A stretch of 64,000 nt of DNA from Natrinema halophilum. GTDB lineage: Archaea; Halobacteriota; Halobacteria; Halobacteriales; Natrialbaceae. How positions within the stretch are numbered: position 1 is the first letter of the stretch; every line of letters starts with the position of its first letter. The position numbers and the translations under genes are program-made. This document shows positions 28,327 to 64,000 of the stretch, piece by piece. The notes beneath the pieces are model-generated. The model ran no database searches. It was not told the DNA's origin and worked only from the letters and a program-made list of their open reading frames with translations. The stretch covers positions 744,001 through 808,000 of the forward strand of contig NZ_CP058601.1 in assembly GCF_013402815.2 (NCBI RefSeq). Reading direction: 5' to 3'.

Positions 28327-28450
28327 TCGACGACCGCCTTTCCGAATGGGTAAGGAGAGTAATACGAGCGGACAGAACGTCAGCGATACAGTAAGTGCAC
28401 GGCGAAACAGCGACCAGAGTGGAGTAGACGATCCTCACGGAATCCGATAC

Positions 28451-28522
28451 TGGTCATAACCATCGGTTCGAGCAGGCGAAATGGACTGGCCATAACCATC
28501 AGTTCGAGCAGGCGAAATAGAT
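28451..28522. repeat. Tandem 36-bp direct repeat upstream of gyrB
   Basis: Copies at 28451-28486 and 28487-28522 differ at four positions. Each carries ATAACCATC followed by GTTCGAGCAGGCGAAAT. They end about 30 bp before the gyrB TATA box, where regulators of gyrase expression might bind. A simple slippage duplication is the other reading. Confidence 0.75.
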
Positions 28523-41125: not shown

Positions 41126-41567
41126 AGTTACTACCTGTTCGTTGGACGAATCTGAGACGCGAAAAAACCCCCGAAACACCGTGAACGTTCGATCGTATGG
41201 AGTTCCACCGATACCAACGGTGTAGGTCTCTCGTGGTTGGTAAGCCGGTACTGAGACCGCGACCGGTAATCCCGTGAAATCCTCAAATCGGGCCCCAAAG
41301 TACGTCTAGTACGACATCCGATCCTCGTCGAGTGGTCACGTAGTCACGCGTTGTCGCTCGAGATTGTACTCCGAACGTGTCGGGTGCTGGTCTCCGAGAC
41401 AACGGTTACCCACGAGCAGTGTACGACTCGGCACCGACGATCGCTGGGATTCGCGATTAACTCGTCGAGTCGTCGTGCGGACGAACCCAGTAAGCGCGAC
41501 TGTCCCACGCCCACGACGAACCCAGTAAGCGCGACTACCCCACGCCCACGAACGAGTGAGTCTGGGA
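41126..41567. other. Intergenic region with a tandem 35-bp repeat
   Basis: About 440 bp between the Nmad3-like and HalOD1 genes. The only clear structure is a tandem duplication at 41481-41515 and 41516-41550 (ACGAACCCAGTAAGCGCGAC... then CCCACGCCCACG), with two mismatches. No gene is supported. Confidence 0.55.
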
Positions 41568-50664: not shown

Positions 50665-50706
50665 ATTAGTTACGAATGTCGTCTAATTAGTTACGAATGT
50701 CGTCTA
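50665..50706. repeat. Exact tandem 21-bp duplication over a stop codon
   Basis: ATTAGTTACGAATGTCGTCTA occurs at 50665-50685 and again at 50686-50706. The unit holds the last codons and stop of the minus-strand gene that ends at 50687, so a second in-frame copy DDIRN plus stop follows the first. Confidence 0.85.
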
Positions 50707-58025: not shown

Positions 58026-60557
58026 ATGTCTCCTGACCAGGCGGTGATTGTCGCCGCGGTCGCGCTCCCGTTTGCCGCTGCAGCACTCACGCCGTTCGTC
58101 TTCCGTATCCTCGGGGAAGAAACTGGAATCGTGGGTGTCCTCGTTGCACTGTCGTCGTTCGCTCTACTGCTAACCCAGTACGGTGCCGAAGGGACCGTCG
58201 CGCTCCAGTGGATTCCGTCCCTCGACATCGCACTCCGGTTTTACGTAGACGGGTGGGCACTACTGTTCGCGTTGCTCGCGAGCGGTATCGGTGCGCTCGT
58301 TTTCGCTTACTCGCCCGCGTACATGCACGGTCAGTCGGGTCTCGTCAGGTACTACGCAGCAATGCTCGCGTTCATGGGTTCGATCGTCGGGGTCGCACTC
58401 GCATCCGATCTGATCGCAATCTTCCTGTTCTGGGAGCTTACGAGCCTCTGTTCGTTCGTCCTGATCGGTTTCTACACCGCCGACGATTCGTCGCAGTACG
58501 CCGCTCGGATGGCCATGCTCATCACCGTGGGCGGCGGCCTCTTCCTGCTCGTGGGGCTCCTCTTGCTGTCAGTCATGGCCGGTGACGTCGTCGGTCCCGC
58601 ATCCGCGTTCGACCTCGCTGCGATGCTCGAGAATTCCGACGCGATGCAGTCGGCGCTTCGGGATCGAGGACTGTTCGTTCCGGTTATGGGATTGCTCGCG
58701 ATCGGCGCAGCGACGAAATCCGCACAGGTGCCGTTGCACTTCTGGCTGCCCAACGCTATGGCTGCGCCGACGCCCGTCTCGGCGTTTCTCCACTCCGCGA
58801 CGATGGTCAAAGTGGGCGTGTACTTCGTCGGACGGGTTCGCCCCATGTTCCTCGGATCGGAGTGGCTGTTGCTGTTCGTGACACTCGGGTTGACGACCAT
58901 GACCGTCTGTGCGATCATGGCCGTCGCGGCGACGGATATCAAAGAACTGCTCGCGTACTCGACGGCGAGCCACCTCGGTCTGATGATCGCCGGATTCGGT
59001 TTTACGTCGGTTTACGGCGCGGAGGCGGGAGTCTTCCATCTATTCAATCACGCCCTCTTCAAGGCTCCGTTGTTCCTCGTAGCCGGAATCATCGCTCACG
59101 AGACTGGAACCCGGCAGATCGACTCACTCGGCGGACTCCGACGCGATCTGCCGGTGACGGCGGCGATCACGACGATCGTCGCGCTTAGCATGGCCGGGAT
59201 TCCGCCGTTCAACGGCTTTTATTCGAAAGAATTACTCTACGAGGCCGCCGTTGAGGCGAGCCACCATCACGATATCGGTGCCCTCGGCCGGCTCTATCCC
59301 GCCGTCGCCGTCTTCGGGAGTATCTTCACCGTCCTCTACTCCCTTCGATTTCTGTCTCTCTTCTTCGGGGACCGACCGGACGAACTCGGCCCCGTCCAGA
59401 GCCCGCCTCTCACGATGCTCGTCCCGCCAGCCTTGCTGGCGCTGCTCGCCGCGGTCGTCAGCGTCGATCCCCAACTCGCCGTAGACGCCATCGTCCAATC
59501 CGGCCTCGAGGCGACGGCGATCGATCCCCACGAGATGCACGTCGGAATTCCGACGTCGTACTCGCTTCCGGTCGGGATGAGCGCCGTCACGATCGGCGTC
59601 GGCCTCGCCGCGTTTCCGTTTTACGGGCGGCTCAACGGTAGCATTCGCGCGATTTCGCGAGCCGTTCCGCAGATCAGACCGAACTGGTGGTACGACGCAA
59701 TCGTCGACGGCCTCACCGACGAAGGGAGATGGCTCGCCGATCGCGTCCACAACGGGCTCCTTCGAACGTACGCGACGTGGACGCTGAGTGGGACCTGCGT
59801 TCTCGCCCTCGTCGGCTTCGTCGCGGCAGGTGCGATCGAGCCAGCCGAACTCGGAGTCGAAGCCACGCTCTCCATCGCACTCGTGTTGCTCGTAGCCGCC
59901 ACCGGTGCGCTCGCCGTGGCTCTCTCCGACTCGCACGTCGCGGGCGTCCTCACGCTCTCGATTCTCGGCTTTATGATCGCCATCTTCTACATCCTCGCGA
60001 GCTCACCCGACCTCGCGTTGACACAGCTCGTCGTCGAAACGCTCGTTCTGTTGATCTTCCTGCTCGTGATCGAAGAGATTCCCGAGTCGTACGCAATCGG
60101 GCTTCGACGTAGCATCCGCGACGTCGTCCTTTCGCTGGCAGTCGGTACGACTGCGTTCGTTACGGTTCTCGTTACGACCAGCGCACGTCCCGGCGGCTCG
60201 ACCTATATCGCTCGTCAATTCGCAGAACGAGCGGTGCCCGAAGGCGGCGGGTCCAACATCGTCAACGTCACTCTCGTCGACTTCCGCGGCTTCGATACCC
60301 TCGGCGAACTCGTCGTGATCGCCCTCGCTGCGATTTCGATCCTGACGCTGATCGTCATGCGCGGCAGCGGCGACGGTGGGCTGATCGATACGCGAGCCGG
60401 AAACGAACTACTCGACAACGAATCGTCCGATGATGAACGCCTCGAGGGCGGACTCTCGGAAGAGAACCCTCTCGAGGGCGGTCCATCCGGAACGCCTCCC
60501 GATGGCGGGAATTCGGACGATGCCGATACCGGGATCGAAGGAGGTGACACGCAGTGA
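58026..60557 (+). CDS. mnhA: Na+/H+ antiporter subunit MnhA/MrpA
   Basis: 843 residues. It resembles complex I subunit NuoL: glutamate in FLFWELTSLCSFVLIGFY (TM5), lysines in ATKSAQVPLHFWLPNAMAAPTPVSAFLHSATMVKVGVY and in DIKELLAYSTASHLGLM. The C-terminal MrpA-specific part follows (LVLLVAATGALAVALSDSHVAGVLTLSILGF and LVIEEIPESYAIGLRRS) plus helices of the MrpB-like type. The last about 45 residues are an acidic Gly-rich tail. The complex exchanges cytosolic Na+ for H+, needed in haloalkaline media. mnhB starts within the last codons. Confidence 0.95.
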   Translation: MSPDQAVIVAAVALPFAAAALTPFVFRILGEETGIVGVLVALSSFALLLTQYGAEGTVALQWIPSLDIALRFYVDGWALLFALLASGIGALVFAYSPAYMHGQSGLVRYYAAMLAFMGSIVGVALASDLIAIFLFWELTSLCSFVLIGFYTADDSSQYAARMAMLITVGGGLFLLVGLLLLSVMAGDVVGPASAFDLAAMLENSDAMQSALRDRGLFVPVMGLLAIGAATKSAQVPLHFWLPNAMAAPTPVSAFLHSATMVKVGVYFVGRVRPMFLGSEWLLLFVTLGLTTMTVCAIMAVAATDIKELLAYSTASHLGLMIAGFGFTSVYGAEAGVFHLFNHALFKAPLFLVAGIIAHETGTRQIDSLGGLRRDLPVTAAITTIVALSMAGIPPFNGFYSKELLYEAAVEASHHHDIGALGRLYPAVAVFGSIFTVLYSLRFLSLFFGDRPDELGPVQSPPLTMLVPPALLALLAAVVSVDPQLAVDAIVQSGLEATAIDPHEMHVGIPTSYSLPVGMSAVTIGVGLAAFPFYGRLNGSIRAISRAVPQIRPNWWYDAIVDGLTDEGRWLADRVHNGLLRTYATWTLSGTCVLALVGFVAAGAIEPAELGVEATLSIALVLLVAATGALAVALSDSHVAGVLTLSILGFMIAIFYILASSPDLALTQLVVETLVLLIFLLVIEEIPESYAIGLRRSIRDVVLSLAVGTTAFVTVLVTTSARPGGSTYIARQFAERAVPEGGGSNIVNVTLVDFRGFDTLGELVVIALAAISILTLIVMRGSGDGGLIDTRAGNELLDNESSDDERLEGGLSEENPLEGGPSGTPPDGGNSDDADTGIEGGDTQ

Positions 60558-61018
60558 CGACTGTCATCATGCGCACGACCGCTCGAGTGATCGTTCCGAT
60601 CGTCCTGGTCGTCGCGATATCGCTGTTCATCGAGGGCCACAACCTTCCCGGGGGCGGGTTCATCGGCGGCGTCCTCACGACGACGGCGTTTGCGATCATC
60701 TACATGGCCTTCGGCCTGGACTTCCTCGAGCGGGGAATCCTCGGACGTGACGTCGACCCCGGTAAGGAACCGTCTCGGGACCGCGTCGTCGTGGCCTACC
60801 GCCGGCTGTTCGCGTACGGGTTCGCGATCGCAGTCGCGAGCGGCCTCGCTCCGCTGCTTTACGACCAGCCGTTTCTCTCACAGACGTTCGTCATACTCGA
60901 GGGGATTCCGATCTACGATCATCTCGAGGTGGCGAGCGCGCTGGCGTTTGATTTCGGCGTCTACTGCGTGGTCGTCGGCGGCCTGCTTACGATTCTGTCG
61001 GTGGTGGGAGCCGAATGA
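60554..61018 (+). CDS. mnhB: Na+/H+ antiporter subunit MnhB
   Basis: 154 residues from a GTG at 60554 that overlaps the mnhA stop (GTGA), with a strong Shine-Dalgarno GGAGGTGA at 60540-60547. Four helices; family mark IEGHNLPGGGFIGGVLTTTAFAIIYM, then FLERGILGRDVDPG and YDHLEVASALAFDFGVYCVVVGGLLTIL. Part of the membrane complex with MnhA and C to G. Confidence 0.94.
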   Translation: MTTVIMRTTARVIVPIVLVVAISLFIEGHNLPGGGFIGGVLTTTAFAIIYMAFGLDFLERGILGRDVDPGKEPSRDRVVVAYRRLFAYGFAIAVASGLAPLLYDQPFLSQTFVILEGIPIYDHLEVASALAFDFGVYCVVVGGLLTILSVVGAE

Positions 61019-61368
61019 CGGCGGTCGTGCTCGCGGCGACGATCGGCGCGCTGTTCGCACTCGGAACGTTCCTGCTGCTACGACGAGACCTCATCCGCGT
61101 CGTCTGGGGACTGACGATCATCAGTCAGGCTGCGAACCTCTATCTCCTGACGATGGGTGGTATCGCGCCGGCAACTGCCGAGTCGGTACCGGTCCTGGCC
61201 GGCCACGGGGATCACGTCCCGGAAACAGCCGATCCGCTGGTCCAGGCGCTCGTGTTGACCGCGATCGTCATCGGCTTCGGCATGACTGCATTCGCGCTCG
61301 TACTGTCGTATCGGGTTTACGAAGAACACGACACGCTGGACGTGACGAATCTTGGTGATCACAAATGA
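61015..61368 (+). CDS. mnhC: Na+/H+ antiporter subunit MnhC
   Basis: 117 residues, NuoK-like. The ATGA overlap with mnhB sets the start. Three helices: VVLAATIGALFALGTFLLLRRDLIRVVWGLTIISQAANLYLLTM, then DPLVQALVLTAIVIGFGMTAFALVLSYRVYE. The final codons contain GGTGATC (61354-61360), a Shine-Dalgarno for the following micro-ORF at 61365. Confidence 0.94.
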   Translation: MTAVVLAATIGALFALGTFLLLRRDLIRVVWGLTIISQAANLYLLTMGGIAPATAESVPVLAGHGDHVPETADPLVQALVLTAIVIGFGMTAFALVLSYRVYEEHDTLDVTNLGDHK

Positions 61369-61415
61369 GTGGACCAGTGCGGGCTGACCGGATTGTGACG
61401 GGTGATCGACGATGA
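61365..61415 (+). CDS. Micro-ORF 1 of the mnhC-mnhD relay
   Basis: 16 codons (MSGPVRADRIVTGDRR). The ATG overlaps the mnhC stop (ATGA) and the TGA overlaps the ATG of micro-ORF 2. Shine-Dalgarno GGTGATC at 61354-61360, four nt before the ATG. It ends in GDRR, as micro-ORFs 2 and 3 do. Confidence 0.45.
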   Translation: MSGPVRADRIVTGDRR

Positions 61416-61462
61416 CGACACTGCGACGACGACGAACGAAGCCGGCGGGTGATCGACGATGA
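61412..61462 (+). CDS. Micro-ORF 2 of the mnhC-mnhD relay
   Basis: 16 codons (MTTLRRRRTKPAGDRR), very basic. SD GGTGATC at 61401-61407, spacing four nt. Both ends overlap neighbours as ATGA. Confidence 0.45.
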   Translation: MTTLRRRRTKPAGDRR

Positions 61463-61506
61463 CGACACTGCGACGACGAACGAAGCCGGCGGGTGATCGA
61501 CGATGA
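61459..61506 (+). CDS. Micro-ORF 3 of the mnhC-mnhD relay
   Basis: 15 codons (MTTLRRRTKPAGDRR), one Arg shorter than micro-ORF 2. SD GGTGATC at 61448-61454, spacing four nt. Both ends overlap neighbours as ATGA. Confidence 0.45.
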   Translation: MTTLRRRTKPAGDRR

Positions 61507-61583
61507 CGACACTGCGACGACGACAAACGAAGTCGGCGGGTGATCGACGGGGACAGACGATGACGACTGGTGATCAACGGTGA
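61503..61583 (+). CDS. Micro-ORF 4 of the mnhC-mnhD relay
   Basis: 26 codons, starting MTTLRRRQTKSAGDRRG and ending MTTGDQR. SD GGTGATC at 61492-61498, spacing four nt. Its TGA at 61581-61583 overlaps the GTG start of mnhD (GTGA). Confidence 0.45.
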   Translation: MTTLRRRQTKSAGDRRGQTMTTGDQR

Positions 61584-63238
61584 CGACTATGGCGACGACT
61601 CCGATCGGCACGAACTCACAGCTCGTGATCGCACCGATGCTGATCGTTCTCGTCACAGCCGTCGCAACGCTGTTGCTCGGACGTCGACCGCAAGCTCGAG
61701 CGGCGGTCAGTCTCGGCGGCGGCGCGGCGTATGCAGTCGCGGTGGCGGCGATCGACTGGTACGTCGTCCTCGCTCCGAACGCGCCCGGAATCGCGACCTA
61801 TCAGGTCGGCGACTGGCCTGCCCCCATCGGAATCACGCTCGTCGCGGACGGCCTGTCGGCGTTTATGCTGACTATGGTCGCCGTTCTGGGCGTCGCATCG
61901 CTTGTCTTCTCGACCCGTCACCTTCCCGGCGATGAGGGCCGAAGCTACTACTTCCCGCTCTTTCACTTCCTGGCGCTTGGAGTTACCGGCGCGTTTCTTA
62001 CTGGCGACCTCTTTAACCTCTTCGTCTGGTTCGAGGTGATGTTGATGGCCAGCTACGTATTCGTCGCGTATTCCGGCGGTCCCGAACACACACGCGCCGC
62101 ATTCTGGTACGTCTCACTCAACTTGCTGGCCAGCGCCGTTTTCTTGCTCGGCGTCGGTGGCATTTACGCGTCCACGGGAACGCTAAATATGGCGGACCTT
62201 GCCCGACGTCTCGCCGAGCCGGCGGCGTACGGACTCGACCCGGTCCCGGTCGTCGGGCTGCTCGGCCTCCTCCTGTCGGTGTTCGCTATCAAAGCCGGAC
62301 TCGTCCCCTTCCAGTTCTGGATTCCGAGCGCGTACCGGGCCGCACCGCCCCAGATTACCGCGTTGCTGGCTGGCGCAACGAAAAAGGTCGGCATCTACGC
62401 TATTATCCGACTGTCGTTTACGGTCTTCGCCGGTGCCGAAATCGCCGTAGATCTCGGGGTTCCGGGAACCGGATTTGCGATCGACTCGCCGCTTTCGTTC
62501 GTGGGCGTCGCACTGTTCCTCATGGCCGGTGCCAGCATCCTCGTCGGCGGCATCGGTGCCGTCGGCCGAGACTCCCTCGAAGGGGTGTTCGCGTACTCGA
62601 GCATCGGTCAGGTCGGCTTCATCGCGATCCCGGTGGCGATCGCGGCGACGACGACGAGTCCGGAACTCCGCCAGCTGGGCATCGTCGCCGCGCTGGTGTA
62701 CGCGCTCAATCATACGCTCGCGAAGGGCCTTCTCTTCCTCGCCGTCGGGGCGGTCAGGTCGGCAACGGGAACCAGCAGCTTCGCCGACCTCGGCGGACTG
62801 GCAAAGCGGTCACCTGCCCTTGCTATCGCGGTGTTCATCGGTTCCTTAGCGCTCGTCGGTATTCCGCCGCTCTCTGGCTTTTTCGGCAAATTCCTCGTGT
62901 TCGACGCCGCGGCTCGCTCCGCGTCGGCGGGCCCCGCGCTCGTCCTCCTCCTCGTCGGCTCGTTACTGACGATAGCCTATTCGACCCGCATGTGGAATCG
63001 GAGCTTCTGGGGGGCCCAGACAGACGCGGTGGAAACTGCGGCGATCGACCCGTTGCAGGTGGCGGTCCTCGTCGTCCTCGCAACGGCGATCCTCGCAGTC
63101 GGCGTGGGATTCGAACCCGTCTACGAGTTCGCAGGAGCCGCAGCGGACGCCGCGCTCGACACTGAGGGGTACGTCGATGCAGTCGATCCCGCCGACGCCA
63201 GCGATCTGGCCGACTCGAGCGGCGGTGATCACACGTGA
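61580..63238 (+). CDS. mnhD: Na+/H+ antiporter subunit MnhD
   Basis: 552 residues from the GTG at 61580. That start is chosen because GGTGATC lies four nt upstream (61569-61575), exactly as before each micro-ORF, and because it overlaps the previous stop; the ATG at 61589 is the alternative. NuoM/NuoN-like helices: FNLFVWFEVMLMASYVFVAYSG (TM5 Glu), AIKAGLVPFQFWIPSAYRAAPPQITALLAGATKKVGIYAI, and GVFAYSSIGQVGFI. Acidic end DPADASDLADSSGGDHT. It pumps or conducts ions within the Mnh complex. Confidence 0.94.
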   Translation: MTTMATTPIGTNSQLVIAPMLIVLVTAVATLLLGRRPQARAAVSLGGGAAYAVAVAAIDWYVVLAPNAPGIATYQVGDWPAPIGITLVADGLSAFMLTMVAVLGVASLVFSTRHLPGDEGRSYYFPLFHFLALGVTGAFLTGDLFNLFVWFEVMLMASYVFVAYSGGPEHTRAAFWYVSLNLLASAVFLLGVGGIYASTGTLNMADLARRLAEPAAYGLDPVPVVGLLGLLLSVFAIKAGLVPFQFWIPSAYRAAPPQITALLAGATKKVGIYAIIRLSFTVFAGAEIAVDLGVPGTGFAIDSPLSFVGVALFLMAGASILVGGIGAVGRDSLEGVFAYSSIGQVGFIAIPVAIAATTTSPELRQLGIVAALVYALNHTLAKGLLFLAVGAVRSATGTSSFADLGGLAKRSPALAIAVFIGSLALVGIPPLSGFFGKFLVFDAAARSASAGPALVLLLVGSLLTIAYSTRMWNRSFWGAQTDAVETAAIDPLQVAVLVVLATAILAVGVGFEPVYEFAGAAADAALDTEGYVDAVDPADASDLADSSGGDHT

Positions 63239-63840
63239 GAGTTCGTACCTGGCCGGTCGTCGGCGTCGTCTTCGCCGCGCTGTGGGTGTTCGTCCGCGGA
63301 CTGGCGCTTACGCCCTCGACGCTCTTTGGTGGGTTCCTCGCAGGCCTGATCGTTGGTCTGCCGGTCGCGTTCATTTTCCGGCGACTGTACAGCAAACACC
63401 TCGATATCGGGCGTGGGATTCGAGCGCTTCCTTACGCCGGACTCTACCTCGCCGCGTTCGGCTGGGAGCTCCTGCGGGCGAACGTCGATGTCTCCTATCG
63501 AGTTCTCTCGCCCGGCATGCCGATCGAACCGGAGGTGATTCTGGTTCCCCTGCGGGTCGAATCCGATGTGGCGATCACTGTCATCGCCAATAGTATCACG
63601 ATCACACCCGGGACGGTCACGCTCGACTACGACGAAGACACGAACGCGCTGTACGTACACGGCGTCAACGGCCGCGACCCACAGGCGATCGCTGAACCCA
63701 TCCACACCTGGGAGGACTACGCACTCGAGATGTTCGACGAAGACGCGTCGCCGTCCGATCCGCCGCCGGAAATCGTCGTCTCGGGTGGCACAAGAGACAG
63801 GGGTCCTGACCGCCAAGACGGAGGTGTCGACGATGACTGA
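63235..63840 (+). CDS. mnhE: Na+/H+ antiporter subunit MnhE
   Basis: 201 residues from a GTG at 63235 overlapping the mnhD stop (GTGA). MnhE signature: LTPSTLFGGFLAGLIVGLPVAF, IRALPYAGLYLAAFGWELLRANVDVSYRVLSPGMPIEPEVI, then ITVIANSITITPGTVTLDYDEDTNALYVHGVN. An acidic tail extends about 40 residues beyond bacterial MnhE. Its end overlaps mnhF by eight bases. Confidence 0.93.
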   Translation: MRVRTWPVVGVVFAALWVFVRGLALTPSTLFGGFLAGLIVGLPVAFIFRRLYSKHLDIGRGIRALPYAGLYLAAFGWELLRANVDVSYRVLSPGMPIEPEVILVPLRVESDVAITVIANSITITPGTVTLDYDEDTNALYVHGVNGRDPQAIAEPIHTWEDYALEMFDEDASPSDPPPEIVVSGGTRDRGPDRQDGGVDDD

Positions 63841-64000
63841 AGCCGACCCGGCGGTCCTCGAGACGGCGATCCGTGCCGCGTTGGTCCTCGTCAGCGGTCT
63901 CTGCGTCCTCTGTGGATACCGCGTGATTCGCGGGCCGACGAACCCCGACCGAGTCGTCGCGCTGGATGCCATCGCGACGAACGTGGTCGCGATTGCGATC
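63833..64000 (+). CDS. mnhF: Na+/H+ antiporter subunit MnhF, N-terminal part (cut by window edge)
   Basis: The first 56 codons are present, from the ATG at 63833: one hydrophobic helix (AALVLVSGLCVLCGYRVI), then RGPTNPDRVVALDAIATNVVAIAI. The RGP-x-x-x-DRVVALD motif is diagnostic of MnhF/MrpF. The gene continues past the window and mnhG probably follows. Confidence 0.92.
   Translation, partial: MTEADPAVLETAIRAALVLVSGLCVLCGYRVIRGPTNPDRVVALDAIATNVVAIAI

Follow-up and report, generated by a model that had tools for sequence, protein, structure and literature searches.

Overlapping micro-ORFs between mnhC and mnhD of Natrinema halophilum: a putative termination-reinitiation relay derived from junction repeats

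How does a ribosome that has finished mnhC reach mnhD in Natrinema halophilum? Both genes encode subunits of an Mrp-type antiporter operon (a sodium pump), and mnhC is conserved in 72 of 125 genomes of the family. In the window, the 64,000-nt stretch of DNA that was analyzed, mnhA/mnhB, mnhB/mnhC and mnhD/mnhE overlap by 4 nt and mnhE/mnhF by 8 nt, so that the micro-ORFs lying between mnhC and mnhD are the sole break in a continuous chain of overlaps (Table 1). At this break, the GTG start of mnhD (61580) is found 211 nt past the mnhC stop codon (61366-61368).

The interval is filled by four micro-ORFs, every one of which starts inside the ATGA that holds the preceding stop. ATGA is found at four of the five joins of the chain and GTGA at the last one, into mnhD, and GGTGATC is placed 4 nt ahead of all five starts. 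This Shine-Dalgarno (SD) motif is complementary to the 3′ end of archaeal 16S rRNA (GGAUCACCUCCU-3′). The exact 18-mer expected there, GCGGCTGGATCACCTCCT, has no match in the genome assembly, in which the rRNA may be masked or slightly different. The four micro-ORFs, their codon counts, the joins and the GGTGATC spacing had all been described in the initial annotation of this DNA and were confirmed in every detail. Coupled gene pairs are characterized by a −4 or −1 nt overlap of stop and start and by an SD within the upstream ORF's tail. Both traits are seen at all five joins and also in the micro-ORFs of relatives, where GGTG(A) or GGAGG precedes the receiving gene.

Table 1. Features of the Mrp operon in the window and, in the last three lines, loci in other haloarchaeal genomes (prefixed by locus)
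Feature	Coordinates	Strand	Description
mnhA (MrpA-like)	58026..60557	+	Upstream operon gene; ORF; GTGA overlap with mnhB
mnhB	60554..61018	+	ORF; ATGA overlap with mnhC
mnhC	61015..61368	+	Gene delivering ribosomes to the proposed relay; Pfam PF00420 (Oxidored_q2), E=1.7e-24
SD 1, GGTGATC	61354..61360	+	Within the mnhC tail, 4 nt 5′ of micro-ORF 1
Micro-ORF 1	61365..61415	+	16 codons, MSGPVRADRIVTGDRR; ATGA at each end
SD 2, GGTGATC	61401..61407	+	Precedes micro-ORF 2
Micro-ORF 2	61412..61462	+	16 codons, MTTLRRRRTKPAGDRR; repeat unit
SD 3, GGTGATC	61448..61454	+	Precedes micro-ORF 3
Micro-ORF 3	61459..61506	+	15 codons, MTTLRRRTKPAGDRR; repeat unit, one codon shorter
SD 4, GGTGATC	61492..61498	+	Precedes micro-ORF 4
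Micro-ORF 4	61503..61583	+	26 codons, MTTLRRRQTKSAGDRRGQTMTTGDQR; unit fused in frame across a decayed junction
Orphan SD, GGTGATC (sixth copy)	61539..61545	+	Decayed junction inside micro-ORF 4; no ATGA behind
SD 5, GGTGATC	61569..61575	+	Serves mnhD
Tandem array	61399..61549	+	44/47-nt junction repeats; Tandem Repeats Finder (TRF)
mnhD	61580..63238	+	Receiving gene; Pfam PF00361 (Proton_antipo_M), E=5.2e-47; GTG start overlaps micro-ORF 4 stop by 4 nt
mnhE	63235..63840	+	ORF; tight 4-nt overlap with mnhD
mnhF start	63833..64000	+	8-nt overlap with mnhE (ATGACTGA)
Relay ORFs ahead of SSF symporter gene	L316:1500-1606		Four tandem 8-codon relay ORFs; other haloarchaeal family; independent parallel to the window array
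Relay ORF, rpl2 to rps19	L311:1500-1574		20 codons (MSSVAHRARDNLIITGGDDG); one haloarchaeal genome
Very short ORFs, rsmA/ksgA-like gene to MscS-type channel gene	L284:1440-1550		Mixed −8, −4 and −1 joins

The array formed by these units has a TRF score of 267, by far the top of the window, and its repeats are about 92% identical. Other near-perfect tandem repeats detected in the window by TRF are those at 28449-28518, 41480-41551 and 50665-50706, with 36, 35 and 21 nt, respectively. Micro-ORF 4 passes through the decayed junction in frame and still terminates on the mnhD start. In the whole 4.84-Mb genome, the repeat is found, with up to three mismatches allowed, only at mnhC-mnhD, in three copies. 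Pairs of GGTGA-N6-RTGA sites 20–50 nt apart occur seven times in 29 Natrinema genomes, six of them at mnhC-mnhD, compared with none for a reversed control pattern, which indicates that the arrangement in the window is not due to chance. Three loci that match the pattern (L188, L197 and L202) have no gene pair joined by a relay and seem to be chance hits.

The most likely explanation is that the micro-ORFs serve as translational stepping stones, namely a tandemly duplicated stop/SD/start junction held in frame by selection for termination-reinitiation. A ribosome terminating on mnhC would reinitiate on micro-ORF 1, then on micro-ORF 2, and so onward into mnhD and the overlapping genes downstream of it. 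In Haloferax volcanii, the downstream gene of an overlapping pair is strictly dependent on translation of the upstream gene (PMC6728339), a 22-nt gap is enough to abolish coupling (PMC10666635), and de novo initiation is not SD-driven (PMC6728339). Without its micro-ORFs, mnhD, 211 nt beyond the mnhC stop, is expected to be uncoupled, and the relay is thus the most economical reading. Selection would then retain phase, SD and stop/start overlap, because internal genes of haloarchaea need termination-reinitiation and this fails over a gap of about 20 nt, while neither the peptides nor the number of units would be retained.

Related genomes were compared on this point. Sixty junctions of Natrialbaceae, 28 from Natrinema and 32 from other genomes, were gathered through mnhC homology and not through a search for relays. 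In one more Natrinema genome (G006, locus L032), frame breaks interrupt both mnhB and mnhC, which may be pseudogenes or affected by assembly errors, and this locus was omitted. At mnhC-mnhD, 41 of the 60 junctions are tight overlaps, and the remaining 19 have spacers of 40–211 nt with one, two or four micro-ORFs. All of the 19 relays are intact: none of their 23 micro-ORFs is broken, and no open spacer was found among the 60 junctions. Start-to-start distances in the single-unit junctions (44, 50, 53, 59, 74, 77, 80, 83, 92 and 101 nt) equal 2 mod 3 without exception, the two-unit and four-unit junctions match the phase expected for their own number of units, and sister species differ in length by multiples of three. 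In all 60 genomes sampled from other families, mnhD has an in-frame start that overlaps the mnhC stop or is no more than 5 nt away.

In a tree of mnhC plus mnhD with 60 tips, presence of the relay shifts at least eight times by Fitch parsimony and is patchy among close relatives. In three genomes (L028, L030 and L031), mnhC ends in GDRR, as does the micro-ORF of their sister L029; it is suggestive only, but these three may have lost a unit through recombination between repeats. Copy numbers of 0, 1, 2 and 4, which slippage between repeats could alter quickly, together with the finding that reinitiation efficiency differs from gene to gene (PMC6728339), would also suit a dosage tuner, in which each stop/start passage sheds ribosomes and an adaptive number of units sets the output of mnhD-G relative to mnhA-C. 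We regard such tuning as unlikely. It is not needed to explain the data, both copy number and presence are patchy in close relatives, and most members of the family, as well as every one of the 60 genomes sampled from other families, manage without micro-ORFs. Besides, Mrp is a multi-subunit complex, and we know of no requirement for reduced MrpD in it.

The same arrangement is found at a second junction of the operon. Between mnhA and mnhB, which are tightly joined in Natrinema, a single micro-ORF of 11–44 codons is present in 13 of 20 sampled Natrialbaceae from outside this genus; it is intact in all 13, the other seven junctions are tight, and none of the 20 has an open spacer. Four genomes (G045, G100, G104 and G108) bear relays at both mnhA-mnhB and mnhC-mnhD. 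As for the remaining joins, mnhD-mnhE is tight in 20 of 20 genomes, and mnhE-mnhF is tight too, except for some pairs in which homology stops short of the start. Decayed SDs or stops in relatives, the result that the initial annotation had named as refuting its reading, were sought and seen in none of the 19 species at mnhC-mnhD and none of the 13 at mnhA-mnhB. Comparison therefore supports the proposal, made in the initial annotation and predicted from sequence, that terminating ribosomes are relayed into mnhD.

These data bear on a second alternative, that the units are neutral tandem repeats forming an untranslated spacer, with mnhD translated from an SD of its own and the frames intact as a by-product of recent duplication. 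Indeed, the window units are so similar to each other that some of their intactness may be merely inherited from copying. The micro-ORFs of other lineages, however, are highly diverged and yet all are in phase with SD and overlap; moreover, open spacers are lacking at both junctions and sister species differ by whole codons. When 17 lineages are taken with one representative each, the probability of having the correct phase and no stop by chance is about 1e-11, and that of phase alone is 1e-8, figures that are indicative only, as they assume an otherwise random interior and independent lineages, and the lineages are not fully independent. The neutral explanation further demands de novo initiation by an SD, which fails in Haloferax (PMC6728339). 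This result may not carry over to Natrinema, where SD-driven internal initiation at mnhD may operate, but in all we consider a neutral spacer very improbable.

What is kept in the relay can be distinguished from what is not. Between sister species, pN/pS of the micro-ORFs is 1.10 at mnhC-mnhD, 0.82 at mnhA-mnhB and 0.96 when pooled, compared with 0.05 for mnhC in the mnhC-mnhD pairs. At the level of sequence, then, the peptides evolve without visible constraint, and the properties kept are phase, absence of stops, overlap and SD. The GDRR ending that recurs in the units is the SD read in frame and not a peptide motif. The region folds no more strongly than shuffled sequences (z=+1.09), which argues against a structural switch and is no proof of a relay, and a search of Rfam gave no family match.

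Short ORFs ahead of genes can act as attenuators, and the window units contain runs of CGA, but it is hardly credible that these micro-ORFs encode micropeptides with a function or act as a regulatory leader, such as a sensor of arginine or of translation rate. A pN/pS near 1 speaks against a peptide function, and the conserved regulatory codons or peptide and the RNA switch of a leader-peptide attenuator are missing, with arginine runs unconserved and a fold that is not unusual. The arginine sensing once suggested for this locus is not borne out: only the window repeats have runs of CGA, and CGA is the commonest arginine codon of the neighboring Mrp genes (21 of 74).

If the micro-ORFs are relay stations, how might they have arisen? 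A junction such as mnhC/mnhD, comprising the SD in the mnhC tail, the ATGA stop/start overlap and the mnhD head, would be duplicated in tandem. With a duplication of 2 mod 3 in length, the downstream head would read into the copied upstream tail and stop at the copied ATGA, so that a single mutation would complete a relay ORF equipped with an SD. The clearest cases have this composition, in which a unit consists of the head of the downstream gene and the tail of the upstream gene, the product expected of a tandem duplication over the junction; the event itself we infer from the sequences. For example, the micro-ORF at one locus (L070) begins with 26 nt identical to the mnhD head of a sister species (L067); the second junction of L070 (GGTGATCGCGAATGACG) copies the first. 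In an unrelated operon (L286), a glycosyltransferase with the tail GESG is followed by a methyltransferase with the head MTP, and the units between them are MTLAGKLRGESE and MTPASNPWGESG, with a 35-nt period. At the symporter locus (L316), a short upstream ORF is followed by three copies of MTLGGDRR and one of MTLGGDRP with a 23-nt period, and then by a sodium:solute symporter starting with VTLG. In the window, micro-ORF 1 resembles an mnhD head only slightly. The initial annotation had read the unit as a duplicate of the mnhD start region that stays functional. This view is upheld and can be sharpened, as those origins that are readable point to duplication of the whole stop/SD/start junction.

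Such elements are not confined to Mrp genes. A frame-blind search for two GGTGA-N6-ATGA sites 16–46 nt apart found matches in 16 of 391 genomes of the class, compared with one for the reversed control. Besides those in Mrp operons, the gene-embedded matches are intact relays: one with two units leads from a polysaccharide deacetylase to an LPG synthase TM protein, two species have one between the genes for a helicase-like protein and Cgi121, and a gene pair that includes an Fe-S CCG-domain protein is joined, also in two species, via an 8-nt overlap. The single unit between rpl2 and rps19 and the four units ahead of the SSF symporter gene (Table 1) are intact as well. At L284, the chain can be traced while its intended path is ambiguous. 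At another locus (L314:1461-1553), a 39-nt SD-ATGA tandem repeat lies off any gene junction and out of relay phase and forms no relay; a related match is found at L315. On balance, we lean toward a broader view, in which junction duplication would be a recurrent one-step route to a distinct expression element of haloarchaea, with arrays selected only for phase, SD and overlap, up to five serial reinitiations without scanning, and independent origins in many operons (both Mrp junctions, rpl2-rps19, helicase-Cgi121, deacetylase-LPG synthase TM, SSF symporter and glycosyltransferase-methyltransferase).

Several known systems share parts of this organization. ATGA termination-reinitiation in H. 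volcanii and Escherichia coli (PMC6728339; PMC10666635) has the same 4-nt overlap, the SD in the upstream tail, the strict dependence on distance and the association with complex subunits, and the Haloferax case also shares the haloarchaeal host. Those systems, however, have one junction between two ordinary genes, whereas here the junction is multiplied into a serial chain of short ORFs with unconstrained peptides. The nearest precedent is the mycobacterial MIRU, a short repeat at gene starts whose ORF is joined by a −4 nt overlap, so that, according to a review, the insertion does little harm to expression (Supply 1997, via PMC12548453). Both kinds of unit contain a short ORF that meets the gene in a −4 nt overlap. 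The MIRU is seemingly mobile and occupies many loci, whereas the archaeal units are local copies of a junction with their own sequence in each operon, those of the window being present at mnhC-mnhD only. In mycobacterial RTGA-coupled small ORFs, too, linkage is conserved over sequence, and the short ORF is thought to deliver ribosomes (PMC4633059). There as here coupling is kept and the peptide is not; those ORFs are leaderless, lie in the 5′-leader and feed the first gene, unlike the tandem, intra-operon ORFs of the present case. In the open-access papers searched, no description of tandem junction duplication as a source of relay ORFs was found.

The relays amount to a natural experiment on how ribosomes pass from a finished gene to the following one, by scanning to its start or only through an overlap. 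In the inserts at both Mrp gene pairs, overlaps at intervals of a few dozen nucleotides are all that has been kept, as a no-scanning model predicts. Caution in the annotation of small proteins is also called for, since a single step can give rise to short ORFs that have no peptide function and yet persist. Finally, related species with 0, 1, 2 and 4 units provide a ready system for measuring serial reinitiation.
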